DNA of 64,000 nucleotides from assembly GCF_002754475.1 (NCBI RefSeq), contig NZ_PEFL01000001.1, positions 2,790,001 to 2,854,000 of the forward strand, given 5' to 3'. This stretch comes from Comamonas sp. 26 (GTDB taxonomy: Bacteria > Pseudomonadota > Gammaproteobacteria > Burkholderiales > Burkholderiaceae_C). Below, one piece after another: positions 35,929 through 55,800 of the stretch. A program made the translations under genes and the position numbers. Below the pieces are notes generated by a model that saw nothing but the letters and a program-made list of their open reading frames with translations, was not told where the DNA came from and did not search any database. The number at the start of each line of letters is the position of its first letter. The first letter of the stretch is position 1.

Positions 35929-37112
35929 CATCGGCACCGAGGCGCAGCTTGTCCAGGTAGTCGGCCCACTGCTGAATCAGGTCAAAGCGCTTGGCTAGGT
36001 ACTTGGTGCGATTGTAGCTACGACCGTTGGCATCTTTCACGACGTGGGCCAGTTTGGCCTCGATGGCCAGCGGGTCCAGATCCACCAGCATGGTGCGGGC
36101 ACTGGCTCTGAAGCCATGCCAGCTTTGCTCCGTACCGAAGCCCAGCCCATCGAGAGTGCTGCACTCAGAGTTGTCGGACAGGGTGCGGTCGTGGTTGCGC
36201 TGGTCGGGGAACACATAACGGCCATGGCCTGTTAGGGAGTGCAGCTCTCGCAGCAGATCCACCGCTTGGACGGGCATGGACACCACGTGCAGCTCGCCAT
36301 TTTCTTTCTCCTGCCTGGTGTGCGCGTCATCTTTTCACTGGGAAGGGTCCGCAGGCCAGCATCCAGATCCAGCTCAGCCCATTCCATCATGCGCAGGTTG
36401 CCGGGGCGCTGGCACAGCAAGGGAGCCACCAGCAAGGCGTGCGCCCACCTTTGTAGGCATGCATGGCCCCCAGCAGCTCGTCAAAGCGCTGTGGCTCGAC
36501 GATGGCGGCAAAGTTCTTTGCATGGTACGGGGTGAGGCGGCTTTTCAGGCCTTCGGTAATGTCGCACTGGTTGTTGCTGACGGTGGGCAGCCCATAGCGC
36601 CATATCTGGCGGGCCAGCATTAGTGCCCGGTCGGCAGTCTCCAGTGCGCCACGCTCTTCCACCTTCTGCAAGACGAACACCAGCTCCATGGGCTCGATGC
36701 CGGCCAAGGGGGCTGACCCAGCCAGGGGAACAGGTCGCGCTCCAACTGTCTCAAGTTCGGCATTCCAACCGGCTACCTGCTTGCCGTGCCAGTCCAGCGC
36801 CACGGCCTGGAAGCTATCTCCGCGATCGATCCCGCCTTTGAGCTTTTCCAGCTTGCGTGCCTCGATAGGGTCGCTGCCCTGCGCCCGTTGCATCTTGGCA
36901 ACATCACGCGCTTTGCGGGCTGCGGTCAGCCCTACGGCGGGGTAACTGCCCAACGCAAGCTGCTTTTCTTTTCCGTCGGTACGGTACTTGTAGAACCAGC
37001 GCTTGGAGCCGCTGGGGCTGACTTGCAGGTACAGCCCGCCAGCGTCGGTGAAGCGTGCCTGCTTGCGATCAGGTGGGCAGATGGCGTTGCGGCAGTGGGC
37101 ATCGGTCAGCAT
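35929..37112 (-). pseudogene. P4-type tyrosine integrase, frameshifted and truncated by IS
   Basis: ATG 37112 starts MLTDAHCRNAICPPDRKQAR and FTDAGGLYLQVSPSGSKRWF, the DUF4102 N-terminus of P4-like integrases. The core is present in pieces in different frames: PLLCQRPGNLRMMEW (first Arg), HGFRASARTML (His-x-x-Arg), LAHVVKDANGRSYNRTKYL (second His, then catalytic Tyr). Frameshifts lie near 36430 and 36290, and the 3' end is cut by IS copy 4 at 35928. Once an island integrase, now inactive. Confidence 0.85.
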
Positions 37113-37290
37113 GGGGTACAGCCTTCCTAGGTGGGGGTACAAATTCCCGCTCTCGGCCCCAGGGTGGGGGTACAACGCATGGGCCGCCAGGCCGCATGGT
37201 TGCTGGGTTGCTGGGTTGCTGGGTTTAGCCTGAAAGTGGGGGTACAACTTAGCCAAAGTATAGGCTTTTGGCGAGTTCTACCCCCACTTT
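37112..37290. repeat. Repeated GTGGGGGTACAA sites upstream of the integrase
   Basis: GTGGGGGTACAA occurs at 37131-37142, 37164-37175 and 37236-37247, with a variant ATGGGGTACA over the start codon (37112) and an inverted copy CTACCCCCACTT at 37278-37289. Three copies of TTGCTGGG lie at about 37200-37223. Such iterated sites beside a P4-type integrase are probably arm-type integrase sites or an excisionase/regulator operator. Confidence 0.6.
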
Positions 37291-46916: not shown

Positions 46917-47671
46917 AGTAAATTCAGATTCGCAGCAGGTGGCTTTGTTTGGTGAGTGAGCGACATCTTAAATTGAATCTGCCTGCTGTTAATACCTGCA
47001 AGTATTTTGGGTAGCCATCGGAATCTCCGGACAGGGTCTATCGCTTATCTTCCAGATAGGCATAGGACTGTGCGTATAACTAGACATACAGAGACGATAG
47101 AGAGACCAGCACAGGCGGAGCTGGTAGGCCGCTGAGAAGGCGGCCTTGGTTCGCAAGACGTACGAGCCAAGCATGTTTTATCAAATGCTAGTCCAAGTTG
47201 CAGATGTCGAATAACTTGGCACCTAAATGGGGCGAGCATGTCCGCCTGAGGCTACATGCTCTAGACGATAACGAGGTTCATAGTCCGCGTCCACAAGTCG
47301 ATATGGCCCGCAGCATTCGCTTTAAGCGGATTCTTGGCAGAGTAGAGCTTCTGTGACCAAAGTTAATGCCTTCTTTTGCCCTAATCCCAATTATCTGCTT
47401 CGGATCGGGAGCGTGAGCCAATTTTCGATAGAAGCGGTCATCAGAAGGCTGCGTACCCTATCAACGGGTCAGAACGTCGCAAACGGCTGCTGCGATCTTC
47501 AGACCAGCCGCTCGACCGATCTGGGGCCGAGCAAGTCGATGACGGCTTGTTACCAGAAAGCGTGAGTTCGACCCTGGCAGACGAAGGACCGGACACGCTG
47601 CATAGCAGTCATCTGCGTTCGATGTCTGGGTGACAGCAGTGGGTCGCAACCGGCCCCACGGCCGGCCACTC
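46917..47671. other. Long intergenic stretch, no gene recognised
   Basis: Contains the second palindrome TACCTGCAAGTA (46994-47005) and a hairpin AGGCCGC-TGAGAAG-GCGGCCT (47126-47146). Frames in it are short and lack SD. Probably decayed sequence at the edge of the prophage island. Confidence 0.5.
46994..47005. promoter_or_regulatory. Palindromic site TACCTGCAAGTA
   Basis: Second copy of the TAC-N6-GTA motif that precedes the USP gene. It is now isolated from any gene, which suggests a lost downstream or divergent gene. Confidence 0.35.
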
Positions 47672-48670
47672 TCAGCTCCGCAACGCAGCCGCTTCCTCCC
47701 TCATTTGCGCCCTAAGCGCCTTGGGCGCCGTATCCGCGATCCGCTGGGTGCGGTCCTTGTTCATCTCGCGCACCTTCTTCCACACATCCGGCATCTTCAC
47801 CACCATGGGCTGCTCGGGGTTGTCGCGGTTCCAGGCCGCCAGGCGCTCGCGCACCCGCTGCACATCACCCTCAAGCGTATCAATCAGCAGCTGGGCAGCC
47901 GCTTCCACGGATGGCTGGCCCAGCACGGCATCGCGCATGGCCTCGTACTTCTCGCCCACTACACGCAGCATGTCGGTGCGTGCCGTCATGTCGATGGAGC
48001 GATCAATGGCCGCGCGCGCTTCCTGGTACAGACTGATCTGGTTGGCATTGGCGCCAAACAGAGATTGCAGCTCGGCATCACTCCAGACAATACCGGGCTT
48101 GAGAAACACGCTCTCAAAACGAGAGTCAATCAACTTCTCAAACTGCTCCAAAGGCTTGCCCTGCCACATGGCCAGCACACCCGAATCAATCTTTCCCTGC
48201 TTGAGCAGCATGGCCGCCTTGTTGTGCACCGAGAGGCTGGCATGGCGCTTTTGCAGATCCTCCACCAAGGTCGCCTTGCCGTTCTCGTCGCGCCCCCAGA
48301 TCAGCGTGCCCTCGAACAACGGCTTGCCCACGGCCTTGTTGTCGGCGGCAGAAACCGGCTTTTTCTTGAGGTCGCCCAGAGACTCGACACGCGGCAGAAT
48401 GCGCGGCGCCATGTCGGCGGCATCGTTGGCCAGCATGCTCACATCGTCAATGTTCTGGCTGGCTGCCTCGTACACCGGCTTGAAGGCCGGGGCGCGCTCA
48501 CCCAGGTGGCGCATGGTGCCCACGGACTTGTCCCACAGCGACACCTTGCCCTCGTGGGTAAAGGTCTGGCTCAGCTGGTCCAGGGCACTGTCCTTGAGCT
48601 CCAGAATCTTGGAGCGGCTGAACATCAAATCATCTGCATCGCTTTCGCCATTCGCTGCATCGCGCTGCAC
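47672..48670 (-). CDS. Prophage protein fragment (large polyvalent-protein type)
   Basis: 332 residues, charged and helical, no signal: for example SKILELKDSALDQLSQTFTH, EDLQKRHASLSVHNKAAMLL and QISLYQEARAAIDRSIDMTA. It resembles the C-terminal region of very long phage polypeptides (PLxRFG/LPD-containing), which place a helical tail after other domains. No convincing start or SD near 48670 and neighbouring sequence is unrelated, so it is probably a 3' fragment. Two long plus-strand frames over it are its shadows. Assignment is tentative. Confidence 0.5.
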   Translation of the reverse strand: MQRDAANGESDADDLMFSRSKILELKDSALDQLSQTFTHEGKVSLWDKSVGTMRHLGERAPAFKPVYEAASQNIDDVSMLANDAADMAPRILPRVESLGDLKKKPVSAADNKAVGKPLFEGTLIWGRDENGKATLVEDLQKRHASLSVHNKAAMLLKQGKIDSGVLAMWQGKPLEQFEKLIDSRFESVFLKPGIVWSDAELQSLFGANANQISLYQEARAAIDRSIDMTARTDMLRVVGEKYEAMRDAVLGQPSVEAAAQLLIDTLEGDVQRVRERLAAWNRDNPEQPMVVKMPDVWKKVREMNKDRTQRIADTAPKALRAQMREEAAALRS

Positions 48671-48709
48671 TTGGTTGGTGTCCAGAGTCAGCAGGCGGTT
48701 GCAGAGCCT

Positions 48710-48736
48710 GCGCCACCCGAGGGCGCTTTTGTTTTT
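48710..48736 (+). terminator. Terminator before a small phage gene
   Basis: GCGCC-ACCCGAG-GGCGC followed by TTTTGTTTTTT. Confidence 0.8.
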
Positions 48737-48750
48737 TCAAGGAGTGCCAG

Positions 48751-49122
48751 ATGACACCAGTACAGAAGTTGAAGTGGGCGATTCTGCTGAAGGCAGTTGC
48801 ATTCGAGAACATCGCCGACCCCGGCGCGATCACCGCCGAGAACGTCGATCAACTCTACGACGACAACAACCAAAACCGGGAACTGCAGGACGCCCGCAAC
48901 GAAATACGCTGCACCTGCCAAGAAACAGACTTCCCCACTCCCCTCTCGCGCCATTACGAATGCAACTCCGTCGCTGCTCGGATGCCCGATGGATCGTGGG
49001 TTGGCTGGAACTACTGGTATGGAGGCGGTAAGGGCTGGCGCGTCTCGGGTACCCGCGCACCTGTGCCGAGACTAGCCAACTGCGACGGGTTAACAAGATT
49101 TCGACCCCGGACTCGGTCTTGA
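48751..49122 (+). CDS. Small phage protein with a replaced C-terminus
   Basis: 123 residues; SD AAGGAG precedes ATG 48751. Residues 1-90 (VQKLKWAILLKAVAFENIAD, SRHYECNSVAARMPDGSWVG, WNYWYGGGK) look like a known type of short phage protein in Burkholderiales, which usually continues with KHGEPEAI. Here the sequence changes at KGWRVSG, inside a 22-base string shared with the phage gene at 33320. The C-terminus is therefore likely a recombination product. Confidence 0.6.
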   Translation: MTPVQKLKWAILLKAVAFENIADPGAITAENVDQLYDDNNQNRELQDARNEIRCTCQETDFPTPLSRHYECNSVAARMPDGSWVGWNYWYGGGKGWRVSGTRAPVPRLANCDGLTRFRPRTRS

Positions 49123-49273: not shown

Positions 49274-50338
49274 ATGAAACCTGCGTACTACAACGAAATC
49301 GACCAGTTCGCGGCCCAGATGCTGCGCAATCTCATTGCAGCCGGGCACATCGCACCAGGCGACGTTGACGAAAGGAGCATCGAAGATGTTCACCCCTCAG
49401 ACCTCAAGCCCTACACCCAGTGCCACTTCTTCGCCGGTGTCGGCGTCTGGTCACATGCACTTCGCCGCGCCGGCTGGCCAGATGATCGACCTGTTTGGAC
49501 TGGTTCCTGCCCCTGCCAACCTTTCAGCGCGGCAGGCGCGGGAGCTGGGTTTGATGACCAGCGGCACCTTTGGCCGCACTTCCACTGGCTCATCTCGGAG
49601 TGCCGCCCTCCAGCAATCTTTGGAGAGCAGGTTGCGAGCCGTGACGCAAATCCTTGGATCGACCTTGTACAAGATGACTTGGAAGGAGTGGGATACAGGG
49701 TCGGGGCGGTCCCGTTCCCGTCTGCGGGCGTCGGTGCTCCGCATATCCGCGACCGGCTCTACTGGATGGCCTACGCCGACGAAGGGCGACGGGGACGGAG
49801 GCCACTTAATGGGCAACTCCAGCGCGACAGGCCGCCGGCCGGATGGATCGAAAACGCAGGTAACCCTGCCAGGCCTGGCTCAATTTGCGGGCTGGAACAC
49901 TCCGGACAGCACGATGACGCAGGCCAAAGCGCGGCCGCCAATACTTGGCACACGAAAGCCAACGGATCCTCAGATCAGTCTGGCGGACCAGGCATTCCAT
50001 CTTTCAGGATGGCCGACACCGACCACAACCAACAATGGAAAAGGAGAGGCCCCGGAGGCCAAGGTGCTACGCGGCATGAATCCGGGACTGAACCCCGCGG
50101 ATGCAGCCCGGCTGACGGGTTGGGACTGCGATCAAGGACCAGCCCGACTAACGGCCACTGGTCAGCTGCTGACTGGCTCCTGTGCCGGGATGGAAAGTGG
50201 CGGCCAGTTGAACCCGGCTCATTCCCGCTGGCTCATGGGGCTCCCGCCAGAGTGGGACGCCTGCGCGCCTACGGCAATGCCATCAACGCGGAAGCCGCGC
50301 GCGTCTTCATCGAAGCAGCCATGAGCTGTATGCCCTGA
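49274..50338 (+). CDS. Phage DNA cytosine-5 methyltransferase
   Basis: 354 residues from ATG 49274 (SD CTGGAG). Starts [20 protein letters not shown]. Motif [18 protein letters not shown], motif IV with catalytic Cys [12 protein letters not shown], motif VI-like FGEQVAS (replacing ENV), motif [13 protein letters not shown] and motif [17 protein letters not shown]. The region between VIII and X (about residues 170-310) is low-complexity and hydrophilic, where the target-recognition domain normally sits. That region and most of the gene overlap another ORF in the +1 frame (49386-50324). Probably protects phage DNA; activity uncertain because motif VI is unusual. Confidence 0.85.
49386..50324 (+). 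CDS. Overlapping +1-frame ORF inside the methyltransferase gene
   Basis: 312 residues, wholly nested in the methyltransferase gene. ATG 49386 has its own SD (AAAGGAG at 49370-49376). The product is Ser/Thr/Pro-rich: [71 protein letters not shown]. It ends [20 protein letters not shown] then [17 protein letters not shown] remember proteins with the same signature ([14 protein letters not shown]...WPTPT...[14 protein letters not shown]) from many prophages, also beside such methyltransferases. That recurrence and the SD argue for real coding. Function unknown. Confidence 0.65.
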
Positions 50339-52438: not shown

Positions 52439-54529
52439 TCACTGCAATCTCACGAATGTGATGTTGAACTCCTTGCATTGTCGGTGCTGCTGCATGCGGT
52501 TGGCGAAGCTGAAGGCATCGTTCAGCTCGCAACGCTGAAACACATCAAGCCCACGGCTAAGCACGATCTTCCAGCCATGATCCGTTGTGATGTCGCGGTC
52601 GTGCTTGGTGCCAGAGGTGTCGTATGTCCAAGAGAACTGAATACCGACGGAGGTGCATGCCTCAGCCATCTTCTCGAAGTTCTCTGTCTGCCGGTCCCCG
52701 CTGAATTCGTCTTCCACCGTCACGACGTGAACAGCCACTTCATCTTCGGGTTTTGAGTTGCGGCTGATCGTCTCGAGAAGCTCCATCAGATTGCGTTGCT
52801 GGTGGAACATGCGCAGATACGGGTCTGTCACGATGATTCGCTTCGCGCCTGCCAGGTAAGGCCCGAACAGCTTGTCGAATGCCACGCCGCGCTGGTTCTC
52901 TTGGAACACCAAGTGCTGCTCTTTCGGCGCGTCAGCGGCCGGAGATACGGGTGCCGGTGGAGCAACAATGGTCGCTGGAGCCGATGCTGCTGGAGTGGCC
53001 GGGACTTGGATGGCTGCGTCCATTGCGAAGGCCCCACTGTTTGGCGCTTCTGCAGCAATGCGCTGGTGATAGGCCGCAGGGTATTCCTCCTCTTCCAGCG
53101 TCGTCACCGCATGCTCTTTACCTTGCTGGTCGATGTAGCTAAACCGAACGGCTGGATAGGTGGAATCAATACGCAGCAGCTGGTCCTTGACCCGCTTTCT
53201 TCCTTCGATCGCCGACCGGAGCAACGCCTCGATCTCCTCCGTGCTCGCCTCACCGTGGGGGTAAATCACCTTCATCAAGCCCGAGAATGTCTTGTTGATG
53301 CCATCGCGGTCGCGCGTCGAGATGTCATCTGACAATCTGAAGTAGGCCTTGTAGCGGTCAGAGAAATCATGGTTGCGAAGTGCCCGCAGGATCTCCGCCA
53401 GATAGTCCACGACGAAGCCGTAGCCGCTGGAGAACATTTCCCCTCGAATCACATCCACTTCCCAGCCCGGGATGTAACTATGGATGCGATCCAGGAAGGC
53501 CGAGTCATGGAACTTCTCAGGCAGAGGATCGAAAAGGTCCGAGTGCTTGAGCATGTAGGGCACTGTGTGGTCAGTGTTTCCTACAAACACCATGCTGGCC
53601 TCAGCGCCAAGCGTTTCCACTCCACGCGAGAACGACTTATTCGCCATGTAGTTCTTCATGATGTCCACCAGCGCTTTGTCCACACGCTTTTGCTTGCCGG
53701 CGAACTCGTCGAAGGCCACCACGTCCCAATAGCCTACCAGGCCCAGTTTGCCCGTGCCGTTGTGGACGAACAGCTTGGGCACAGTCACCTCACCGCCGGA
53801 AATCAAAATGCCGTGTGGTGAAAACTCCGAGAAGATGTGCGACTTGCCCGTGCCCTTGGGACCTAGCTCTATCAGGTTGAAGTTGCGCTCGCAAAAAGGA
53901 ATCAGACGCACCAGTTGGCTGAGCTTGTTGCGCTTGCCGAACATCTGCGGGTTGAAGCCGACGCTCTGGATGAGTAAGTCAATCCACTCCTCCGTGCTGA
54001 ACTGCTTGCGCGCTGCTAGGTAACCGTCGAAGTCGAAGTGCGACAGCTGAATGGGCTTGATGGATGCGAGTACCCAAGGGGTAGCGTTCTTGTCCTCCGT
54101 GAACATGTACTCCAGGTCAGCGATGCACCACACACCGCCCACCAGCAGCTTGGGGTGCGCCTTCACCGTGGCCGAATCAATGATGACCTTCTTGATGCCT
54201 AGGTTCGCAAATTCAGCCTCATAGGCATCGGACTTGTCATTGAGCGCCACACTGATGCGGTCGATCACCTTGTGACGGCCCTTTTCCTTAATGGTGGAGC
54301 GCACCAACCCGGCTTCATTACGATGCACATAGTGCTTGCGCAGGATTTCGCGCACGGTGTCGATGCCTGCCTGGATGGTATTCTCGTCGTCAGTCGCACA
54401 ATACTGGCCCAGCAGGTACTCAAGCACGTAGGTGGGCACGATGGCGTTGCCCTTCACAGTCTTGACCAAGTCCTTGCGAACCACCAGCCCGGCAAAGTGT
54501 TGATTGATCTTGTTATCCAGTTGACTCAT
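52439..54529 (-). CDS. brxL: BREX protein BrxL (Lon-like AAA+ protein)
   Basis: 696 residues from ATG 54529. MSQLDNKINQHFAGLVVRKD is the typical start. AAA+ core: Walker A ELGPKGTGKSH (near residue 230), Walker B VVAFDEFAG, and GNTDHTVPYMLKHSDLFDPL near residue 345. C-terminal Lon-like domain IIVTDPYLRMFHQQRNLMEL through DITTDHGWKIVLSRGLDVFQ. BrxL is needed for phage resistance in type I BREX and forms a DNA-threading ring. It appears complete, although most of its system is missing here: only the 3' part of pglZ precedes it. Confidence 0.92.
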   Translation of the reverse strand: MSQLDNKINQHFAGLVVRKDLVKTVKGNAIVPTYVLEYLLGQYCATDDENTIQAGIDTVREILRKHYVHRNEAGLVRSTIKEKGRHKVIDRISVALNDKSDAYEAEFANLGIKKVIIDSATVKAHPKLLVGGVWCIADLEYMFTEDKNATPWVLASIKPIQLSHFDFDGYLAARKQFSTEEWIDLLIQSVGFNPQMFGKRNKLSQLVRLIPFCERNFNLIELGPKGTGKSHIFSEFSPHGILISGGEVTVPKLFVHNGTGKLGLVGYWDVVAFDEFAGKQKRVDKALVDIMKNYMANKSFSRGVETLGAEASMVFVGNTDHTVPYMLKHSDLFDPLPEKFHDSAFLDRIHSYIPGWEVDVIRGEMFSSGYGFVVDYLAEILRALRNHDFSDRYKAYFRLSDDISTRDRDGINKTFSGLMKVIYPHGEASTEEIEALLRSAIEGRKRVKDQLLRIDSTYPAVRFSYIDQQGKEHAVTTLEEEEYPAAYHQRIAAEAPNSGAFAMDAAIQVPATPAASAPATIVAPPAPVSPAADAPKEQHLVFQENQRGVAFDKLFGPYLAGAKRIIVTDPYLRMFHQQRNLMELLETISRNSKPEDEVAVHVVTVEDEFSGDRQTENFEKMAEACTSVGIQFSWTYDTSGTKHDRDITTDHGWKIVLSRGLDVFQRCELNDAFSFANRMQQHRQCKEFNITFVRLQ

Positions 54530-54549
54530 CGGTACACCCTCCGCCTGTT

Positions 54550-55800
54550 TCAAAAGTCAAACTCGCTGGTGAACGAGCGACGGATCGTGTATCGCACTGA
54601 CACGTAGCGCGTGTAGTGGGAAGTGCCGTCCACCGGTTCGTCCATACGCAGCTCAACCTGCTGATTGTTGTAATCATCCGACTTGCGGCTGAGGATGAAG
54701 CGCACAGCGACCTCACGCTCACGCGGGTTGCAGGAGGGCATATCGAAGCTCAATTCCTGCACGTCCGAGATTGCCTCGCCTGACAGCGCATACAGGCCCA
54801 CGCGCAAGCGGCGCGGTTGCCGTTTGTCTGTCACCGGTTCAGTCTGGTAAAGCACGACGGCCAGCTGCCCCGTCGTGATGGTTTTGCCGCCACCACCGAT
54901 CAACTCCACCTCCACCTTGCCAACGTCACTTTGGCGCTTCTTGTTGATACTAATGACAGGGATCACCACTTCCTGCAAGGTGGCACCACCGTGCACGAAA
55001 CGACTACCCGAACCTTTCAGGCGCAGGCGATTGATCGACTTGGGGATCTGTACCTGCAAGCTGCCCGCTAAGCTCAACTGCTGTGGCTGAAAGGTTTTGA
55101 AGCTGCTGTGTTCACGCAGGCCGCGCCCCAACACAAAGCGCCTGTCGACATAAAGGATCTCATCACCGCTGGGCTCGGTGCTGAGGAAGTCGCTGTCCTG
55201 CAGCGGGTGGTGTTGGTAGATAAATCCATGATCCGCCGTGACCACGATGTTGCTGGCATTGGCATTGGCCAGCTTTTTGATCACCCGCAGTAACTCGTCC
55301 AGCGTATCTTCCGCAGCATTAAAGACGCGCTCTTCAGTGGACAGCTTGTCGCCAATGTTGTCGATCAGGTTGTGATAGACGTACACCACATCGTGATCGC
55401 GCACCAAGGCGCGTGAATCCTCCTTGCCCATGGCCAGCACATCTTTCGCCAGCACAGCAGTGGATGCAGCCACTGTCTGAGCCAAGATGCGGGCTCGGTT
55501 GGCGGTGCCAGTGGCGCTGATGCCATCGGCCTCCACCTGGCCACTGCCGTCCTCCACAATCTGCAGTGTCTTGTGCGGCAAGAGCGAGGCCATCCCCAAC
55601 TGGGTATAGCTGGGCAGGCAAGACAGGGCTGGTACCAGCTCAGCGTCAAAACGGTCTTCGCGCCGAATCAGGCTTTGCAGTTCCTCGCCTACCTCATAGC
55701 GGAAGGCATCCGAGATCAGCACACACACTTTGCCTTTTCGGCTTAGAGCGGGCTGCACGAAACGTTCGTAGAAGTCGGCCTGACTCACCACCGGCGAGGC
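54550..55800 (-). pseudogene. pglZ: PglZ, C-terminal half only (BREX)
   Basis: About 415 codons. From ...SQADFYERFVQPALSRKGKV onwards the frame matches the alkaline-phosphatase-like core of BREX PglZ: VCVLISDAFRYEVGEELQSL, YVYHNLIDNIGDKLSTEE, NIVVTADHGFIYQ, and the C-terminal beta domain. Normal PglZ has about 800-880 residues, so the N-terminal half is lost. Upstream it joins the N-terminal coding part of brxR in a different frame. A GTG pair at 55786-55791 could start a shortened product. Stop lies 20 bases before brxL. Confidence 0.88.

Follow-up and report, generated by a model that had tools for sequence, protein, structure and literature searches.

In the window analysed here, a stretch of 64,000 nucleotides from Comamonas sp. 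26, a phage-type cytosine methyltransferase gene contains a second long open reading frame in the +1 register. This arrangement raises the question of whether the same DNA encodes two proteins and, if so, which role the second would play next to the enzyme. The outer frame, which we term alpha, is intact and encodes 354 residues from an ATG at 49274 to a TGA at 50336-50338, with its match to PF00145 spanning residues 75-169. The nested frame, termed beta, extends from an ATG at 49386 to a TGA at 50322-50324, its offset of 112 nt placing it in the +1 register of alpha. Both phrog_363 and phrog_1008, the families matched by alpha and beta respectively, are described as 'DNA methyltransferase'. 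The sequence bears out the preliminary description of an uninterrupted nested frame of 312 codons (49386-50324) with its own AAAGGAG, and also its remark that the bases of YGNAIN (alpha residues 333-338) encode CAPTAMPS in the +1 frame. The features of the locus are given below, where I, IV, VIII and X are the customary names of the alpha motifs at these positions.

49274..50338, + strand: alpha, predicted catalytic subunit, C5-cytosine DNA methyltransferase (PF00145 3e-12, phrog_363 8e-85, M.HhaI 1.8e-5)
49371..49377, + strand: AAAGGAG, Shine-Dalgarno-like site of beta, 8 nt upstream of its ATG (sequence)
49386..50324, + strand: beta, nested +1-frame ORF of 312 aa, proposed target-recognition subunit (phrog_1008 4.5e-36, 160/160 loci, dual-frame constraint)
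49386..49766, + strand: beta N-terminal domain, aa 1-127 (alignment A1, codon profile)
49415..49450, + strand: alpha motif I (alignment A2)
49511..49528, + strand: alpha motif IV, PCQPFS, with the catalytic Cys (alignment A2, M.HhaI alignment)
49739..49765, + strand: alpha motif VIII, PHIRDRLYW (alignment A2, M.HhaI alignment)
49767..49892, + strand: beta cassette 1, aa 128-169 (module parsing, cluster of 24)
49893..50009, + strand: beta cassette 2, aa 170-208 (module parsing, cluster of 43)
50010..50144, + strand: beta cassette 3, aa 209-253 (module parsing; no clustered relative among 207 parsed proteins)
50205..50255, + strand: motif IX-like block in the beta frame, aa 274-290 (invariant or near-invariant columns in A1; alignment to IX of single-frame enzymes)
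50258..50287, + strand: alpha motif X (alignment A2)

The length of the open +1 frame is only mildly unusual and on its own constitutes weak evidence, because the observed 348 codons were reached by 61 of 5000 synonymous shuffles of alpha, which left a mean open stretch of 209 codons; it is the comparison across loci that is decisive. Scans of viral contigs provided 160 loci, the best 80 obtained with the alpha query and the best 80 with the beta query, located on 144 contigs of which 16 were found twice (as judged by contig names). In all 160, beta is found in the same +1 register within alpha. An intact alpha coding sequence is present in 150 sequences (149 loci and the window), the 11 loci that failed including L138, where alpha is interrupted by a stop, and a reduction to genes of less than 85% alpha identity left a non-redundant set of 99. 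Stops in the +1 frame of most homologues, which the preliminary description had named as evidence against a second gene, were not encountered, as the beta core is interrupted in only 3 of the 150 sequences (L062 and, from one contig, L023 and L153) and in 2 of the 77 loci with intact alpha that were fetched with the alpha query alone. Real genes are thus stop-free in 147/150 cases, whereas alpha-synonymous shuffling left the core stop-free in 502/7500 and interrupted in 6998/7500. In two further loci (L053 and L056), beta is interrupted in its first part. A natural control is offered by EBPR siphovirus 2, where an insertion in the PCQPFS motif of alpha, intein-like as judged from its sequence, has 12 +1 stops in 376 codons, with the remainder open from codon 29 to the end of beta. 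The comparison across loci confirms the +1 frame as a second coding frame inside the methyltransferase gene, whose translation is predicted.

Purifying selection acts on both frames in the 99 non-redundant genes. This is reflected in a two-frame substitution count (an OLGenie-like tally of our own, comprising 1421 pairs at 5-22% divergence), the rates of which are descriptive only because the pairs are not independent and few sites are silent in both frames. In alpha codons 81-168, changes that affect both proteins (NN) occur at a rate of 0.104 in this count, those that affect only alpha (NS) at 0.207, those that affect only beta (SN) at 0.251 and those that affect neither (SS) at 0.815. The equivalent values in codons 296-333, which overlap with motif IX, are 0.057/0.164/0.137/0.589. 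In the 5' part that is used by alpha only, the alpha-silent rate is 0.627, and a would-be effect on 'beta' matters little for alpha-altering changes (0.099 vs 0.087). The rate of alpha-synonymous change, whose lack of depression had been proposed as a further argument against dual coding, is thus depressed from 0.627 to 0.251. In alpha codons 38-80, which cover the first ~40 residues of beta, SN amounts to 0.49 and NS is similar to NN, indicating little constraint on beta. The initial claim of about 940 bp with two conserved frames is therefore supported by the count, with the reservation that these first residues are little constrained.

The diversity at individual codon positions of alpha follows the same pattern. 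In the alpha-only 5' part, it amounts to 0.16/0.13/0.54 at positions 1/2/3 (99 genes). At the third position it is 0.48 in codons 38-80, 0.27-0.31 in codons 81-172, where beta overlaps motifs IV-VIII, 0.13 in codons 311-333, which underlie motif IX of beta, and 0.52 in codons 334-348, which underlie the variable tail of beta. As single-frame control, we used relatives of the mycobacteriophage protein ShiLan gp70 (16 non-redundant sequences, from the 23 of 47 candidates that yielded a long catalytic ORF), where third-position diversity is 0.48-0.58 everywhere and 0.505 at IX, a control that is modest because IX was pattern-confirmed in the catalytic frame in only 6 of the fetched loci. In a Paenibacillus-type nested set (40 non-redundant), the value is 0.65 outside and 0.39-0.43 inside the overlap, and in an L238-type nested set (9 non-redundant) it is 0.12 at IX.

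Signals for a separate start of beta are also conserved. Asp38 of alpha is encoded by GAT in 81/99 genes compared to 947 of 2435 Asp codons in the background (column included), a choice that creates a +1 ATG if the next base is G, and this column reads ATG in 67/99 genes. Similarly, the Arg codon at the Shine-Dalgarno site is AGG in 31/99 homologues but in only 237 of 3040 Arg codons of these genes (column included). Within a surrounding zone of 180 nt, 92/99 genes have an ATG with a Shine-Dalgarno-like 4-mer ahead of it in the beta frame, whereas the two remaining frames contain this combination in 10/99 and 0/99 genes. The N-terminal domain of beta consists of a weakly constrained first part followed by a conserved core (LESRLRA..GSTLYK.TWK..RLRAS). 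In phage N15, +1 stops are located within the first residues while the core is open and, together with the weak constraint on the first ~40 residues, this places the start of the required part of beta near the LESRLRA..TWK core.

The potential function of beta is illustrated by the distribution of motifs between the two frames. Alpha carries motifs I-VIII and X, with the PCQ of motif IV and motifs VI-VIII found in invariant columns of A2. The usual motif IX of a single-chain enzyme is absent from alpha, and an IX-like block is instead contained in the nested frame, where a pattern scan detected it in +1 relative to motif IV in 154/160 loci (with no IV or IX in 4 and a spurious match in 2, L087 and L133). 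Both halves are joined in ShiLan gp70, which contains the catalytic part, PTP-type cassettes, an EWMMGWPAGW block and motif X in one frame, whose +1 frame contains stops and which matches the alpha family phrog_363 (4.1e-79) as well as the beta family phrog_1008 (2e-61, residues 196-388). In profile alignments, alpha matches residues 25-161 of the single-frame set A3 with an E-value of 4e-21, and the cassettes and IX of beta match residues 201-356 with an E-value of 4.2e-6 and a probability of 87%, compared to 0.19 for alpha against beta and 0.03 for the best of 20 column-shuffled beta profiles. Searches with beta in Pfam, NCBIfam and PADLOC gave no match; 60 beta members searched against Pfam hit six families with one member each (best E 0.03), and single-sequence and profile searches of the PDB returned nothing up to an E-value of 10. 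A small domain that comprises the variable region and motif IX and makes all specific DNA contacts has been described (PMC3404938). Beta would correspond to this small domain and alpha to the large domain. Since IX and the cassettes reside in beta and ShiLan gp70 combines both halves, these sequence relationships most likely reflect a methyltransferase that is naturally split, with beta as subunit for target recognition and alpha as subunit for catalysis.

Between its N-terminal core and the IX domain, beta contains a run of 1-10 units, which start with W.TP, end near LAG and have a median internal length of 36 aa. We parsed 207 beta proteins (the window, viral loci and 120 listed database proteins, excluding those without both anchor motifs), in which 705 units of clusterable length form 73 clusters (singletons included) that appear in 161 distinct orders. 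The longest array among them is found in P0001, a protein of 627 aa with ten cassettes. In pairs whose flanks are at least 80% identical, cassette order or content differs in 3469/3592 cases, a value to be taken as an upper bound, given that the parser does not always separate two adjoining units. In pairs with flanks of less than 55% identity, 201/4650 share a cassette that is at least 80% identical. In P0103, the most identical among the relatives listed (81%), the first two cassettes are common with the window and the third is different. By their position, their variability and by analogy, the cassettes would act as DNA-recognition domains.

The same region sheds light on the unusual middle part of alpha. 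Within cassettes, the diversity at positions 1/2/3 of beta codons is 0.345/0.292/0.538 (nine clusters, 223 instances, not thinned), and the codon signature thus belongs to beta, which led us to reject alpha as recognition subunit. With the beta protein kept fixed, about 7.6 alpha-frame stops per gene would be expected and only 2 of 9600 shuffles were stop-free, whereas no stop was found in the 96 genes tested, an absence that is in part a consequence of the sample, which was chosen for an intact alpha (which 11/160 loci failed to provide) and excluded two loci where beta is interrupted. The middle region of alpha is most readily interpreted as a by-product that arises from translating the cassettes in the alpha frame and is maintained without stops for the sake of motif X further downstream. 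The preliminary proposal that the overlap explains the odd target-recognition region of alpha is supported by these data and sharpened, as it is beta and not alpha that displays the codon signature there.

These results have to be weighed against other explanations of the nested frame, one of which regards it as an untranslated by-product of the GC-rich codons with which the methyltransferase is encoded. The open stretches that persist after shuffling of alpha, some of which match the observed length, would be in line with such an origin, and so would the long mirror ORFs found nearby opposite a phage gene (47630-48754, 47721-49031). Length by itself would thus not suffice to dismiss a chance ORF, which we reject on the substitution data, as these reveal selection on both frames. 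The conserved start signals of beta, the same nested layout at lower locus GC (0.42-0.46) and the normal third-position variability in single-frame relatives equally contradict a by-product, and we find this explanation scarcely credible. Programmed frameshifting would also account for a constrained +1 frame, with the beta sequence being reached from alpha to yield a fused protein instead of a separately started subunit. With the N-terminal catalytic portion encoded in frame 0, and target recognition together with IX in +1, the shifted product would resemble a normal enzyme up to IX, but with motif X located in frame 0 a full enzyme would require two shifts. The internal ATG with its Shine-Dalgarno-like site in 92/99 genes and the constraint acting on the N-terminal domain of beta itself, where it overlaps motifs IV-VIII, further argue for an independent start, and frameshifting appears improbable.

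Beta might also be a genuine second protein that serves another purpose than target recognition, such as an anti-restriction or regulatory factor. Its N-terminal domain, for which Pfam and NCBIfam contain no match that would suggest a function, leaves room for such a role, whereas its cassettes and IX can be aligned to their counterparts in single-frame methyltransferases, alpha is devoid of IX and the cassettes vary in the way expected of recognition domains, which makes a different function quite improbable.

The nested arrangement is not confined to the window. Among 50,697 phage records (E up to 1e-5), beta was detected in 195 and alpha in 348, and among 72,556 plasmid records (E up to 1e-3) beta was detected in 15. 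A match on a plasmid of K. aerogenes NCTC9644 was considered as a potential link to M.EaeI and discarded, with phage-like genes nearby and 0 restriction nucleases among 16 annotated features. A profile search of a protein database identified at least 7827 beta relatives among the 8000 scored, of which 120 were listed, without a Pfam domain. Beta is also present in 8 of the 100 genomes searched (including that of the window), all from one genus and one of them being a short match with a stop, a patchy spread that would fit a mobile element. Phages with a nested frame include N15 (core), epsilon15, K1G, Rhodobacter phage RcSalem, Vequintavirinae phage NINP13076 and the BASEL phage Bas76. In K1G, both frames were annotated by the depositors, with beta as 'putative Mte8-like protein', and the depositors of Paenibacillus phage Toothless likewise annotated both a divergent alpha and a nested beta of 234 aa.

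The nested layout is also observed in two further sets of phage loci that are dissimilar to the window type. In a scan derived from Toothless, IX is located in +1 within the span of alpha in 62/80 loci, at a GC content down to 0.42, and 14/80, where no IX was recognised by pattern, stay unclassified. The 77 loci of a scan derived from ShiLan contain IX in +1 inside alpha in 26 cases and in the same frame in 6, with no IX detected by pattern in 40, which likewise stay unclassified, no IV in 1 and IX past the alpha stop in another frame in 4. In the 26 nested loci of this type, motif X was unseen by pattern, yet it is visible in the alpha frame of L238 and L247. With the nested form present in three dissimilar sets, and single-frame and AquI-like organisations existing alongside them, it is probable that the split emerged, or was reversed, on more than one occasion.

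Several loci show individual peculiarities. In L255, L265, L266 and L267, motif IX is located in the +2 frame, downstream of where the catalytic ORF ends, and L265 looks frameshifted or rearranged. An intein-like insertion of ~375 residues is located exactly at the catalytic PCQPFS of EBPR siphovirus 2 gp44 (L171:136-2631). In L076:1604-3205, beta (534 aa) extends past the end of alpha, and the extension matches phrog_18562 (8.2e-7), a possible fusion with a downstream gene.

In the window, we read the methyltransferase gene as part of a prophage remnant of roughly 47.6-52.2 kb, where small genes of phage type accompany an excisionase-like gene and a fragment of a giant phage protein. The fragment (47672-48670, - strand) matches positions 692-932 of the 1664 positions of phrog_21376 and is a remnant of a very large phage protein; the + strand mirror ORFs opposite to it (47630-48754, 47721-49031) look spurious. 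Directly adjoining the remnant are the BREX genes brxL (PF13337 4.6e-129) and pglZ (PF08665 9.2e-62) at 52439-55791 (- strand). An integrase-like ORF (phrog_1 3.9e-9) is found at 36387-37256 (- strand), ~10 kb from the remnant.

Conserved register, selection on both frames, start signals, shuffled cassettes and the homology that both halves share with a single-frame enzyme were all obtained by computation. Collectively, we consider it very likely that the locus gives rise to a naturally split C5-cytosine methyltransferase with catalytic and recognition halves that are both read from the same DNA. In the mechanism that we propose, alpha, translated in frame 0, would constitute the large catalytic domain with the cofactor and catalytic motifs I-VIII and X, and beta, started separately at the internal ATG with its own Shine-Dalgarno site, would provide the small domain, composed of the conserved N-terminal part, exchangeable cassettes of ~36 residues for reading the DNA target, and motif IX. 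We infer that both proteins associate into a heterodimer to form the active methyltransferase, with the cassettes determining which sequences become methylated. Phages could thus change or add specificities by swapping cassettes, with the presumed benefit of protecting their DNA from host restriction. The cassette region of alpha would merely be kept free of stops for its frame to reach motif X, and storage in two frames would require each imported cassette to lack stops in both.

With less assurance, we lean towards viewing these proteins as a widespread class of phage enzymes for which one stretch of DNA encodes, in separate frames, a catalytic subunit and a combinatorial subunit for specificity. 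It is uncommon for genes of 200-300 codons to be fully nested and to be under selection in both frames. If our interpretation is correct, recombination would reprogram specificity while the catalytic gene stays readable, and the system would permit the study of cassette exchange under the demand for read-through in two frames. It would also imply that thousands of beta proteins in databases are the unrecognised half of methyltransferases and that the annotation of many phage cytosine methyltransferases covers only one of their halves, and it suggests a testable function for each frame. In practical terms, the catalytic ORF may look inactive when expressed without its nested counterpart, and codon optimisation of alpha would destroy beta.

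How this organisation relates to described enzymes is best seen from the division of motifs between chains. PHROG 363 (alpha) and 1008 (beta) appear as separate families in the match table, which is silent on an overlap or a joint enzyme, and in a search of the open-licence literature we came across no description of phage methyltransferase genes that overlap in a nested fashion, which is weak evidence of absence. In M.EcoHK31I, two genes overlap in different frames, and the recognition domains of SPbeta-type methyltransferases have a length near 40 residues. Like the protein of the window, ShiLan gp70 combines motifs I-VIII, (L)PTP cassettes, an IX-like EWMMGWP block and X, but it does so in a single frame with its +1 frame stopped, whereas in the window these elements are distributed over two frames.

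M.EcoHK31I, which recognises YGGCCR, contains motifs I-VIII and X in its large subunit and motif IX in a smaller polypeptide, with the predicted recognition domain assigned to the large subunit (PMC3404938). Compared by this described motif layout, the window enzyme is equivalent in placing I-VIII and X on alpha and IX on beta, but it differs in that the recognition-like cassettes, in arrays of 1-10, are found in the nested frame and not in the catalytic subunit. M.AquI is a C5 enzyme split into two polypeptides (PMC3404938), a property it would share with the enzyme of the window; a difference concerns motif X, which is on alpha in the window. An AquI-like division with partial overlap is found in L289. 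The multispecific C5-methyltransferases of Bacillus temperate phages (SPbeta-type) contain serial target-recognition domains in a single polypeptide (PMC12707154). Beta, whose exchangeable cassettes would each recognise DNA, may resemble them in its array of several modules, and it differs in that the array of the window is carried by a separate nested +1 protein. M.EcoHK31I and the recognition-domain arrays of Bacillus temperate phages are thus the closest precedents for the enzyme described in this study.
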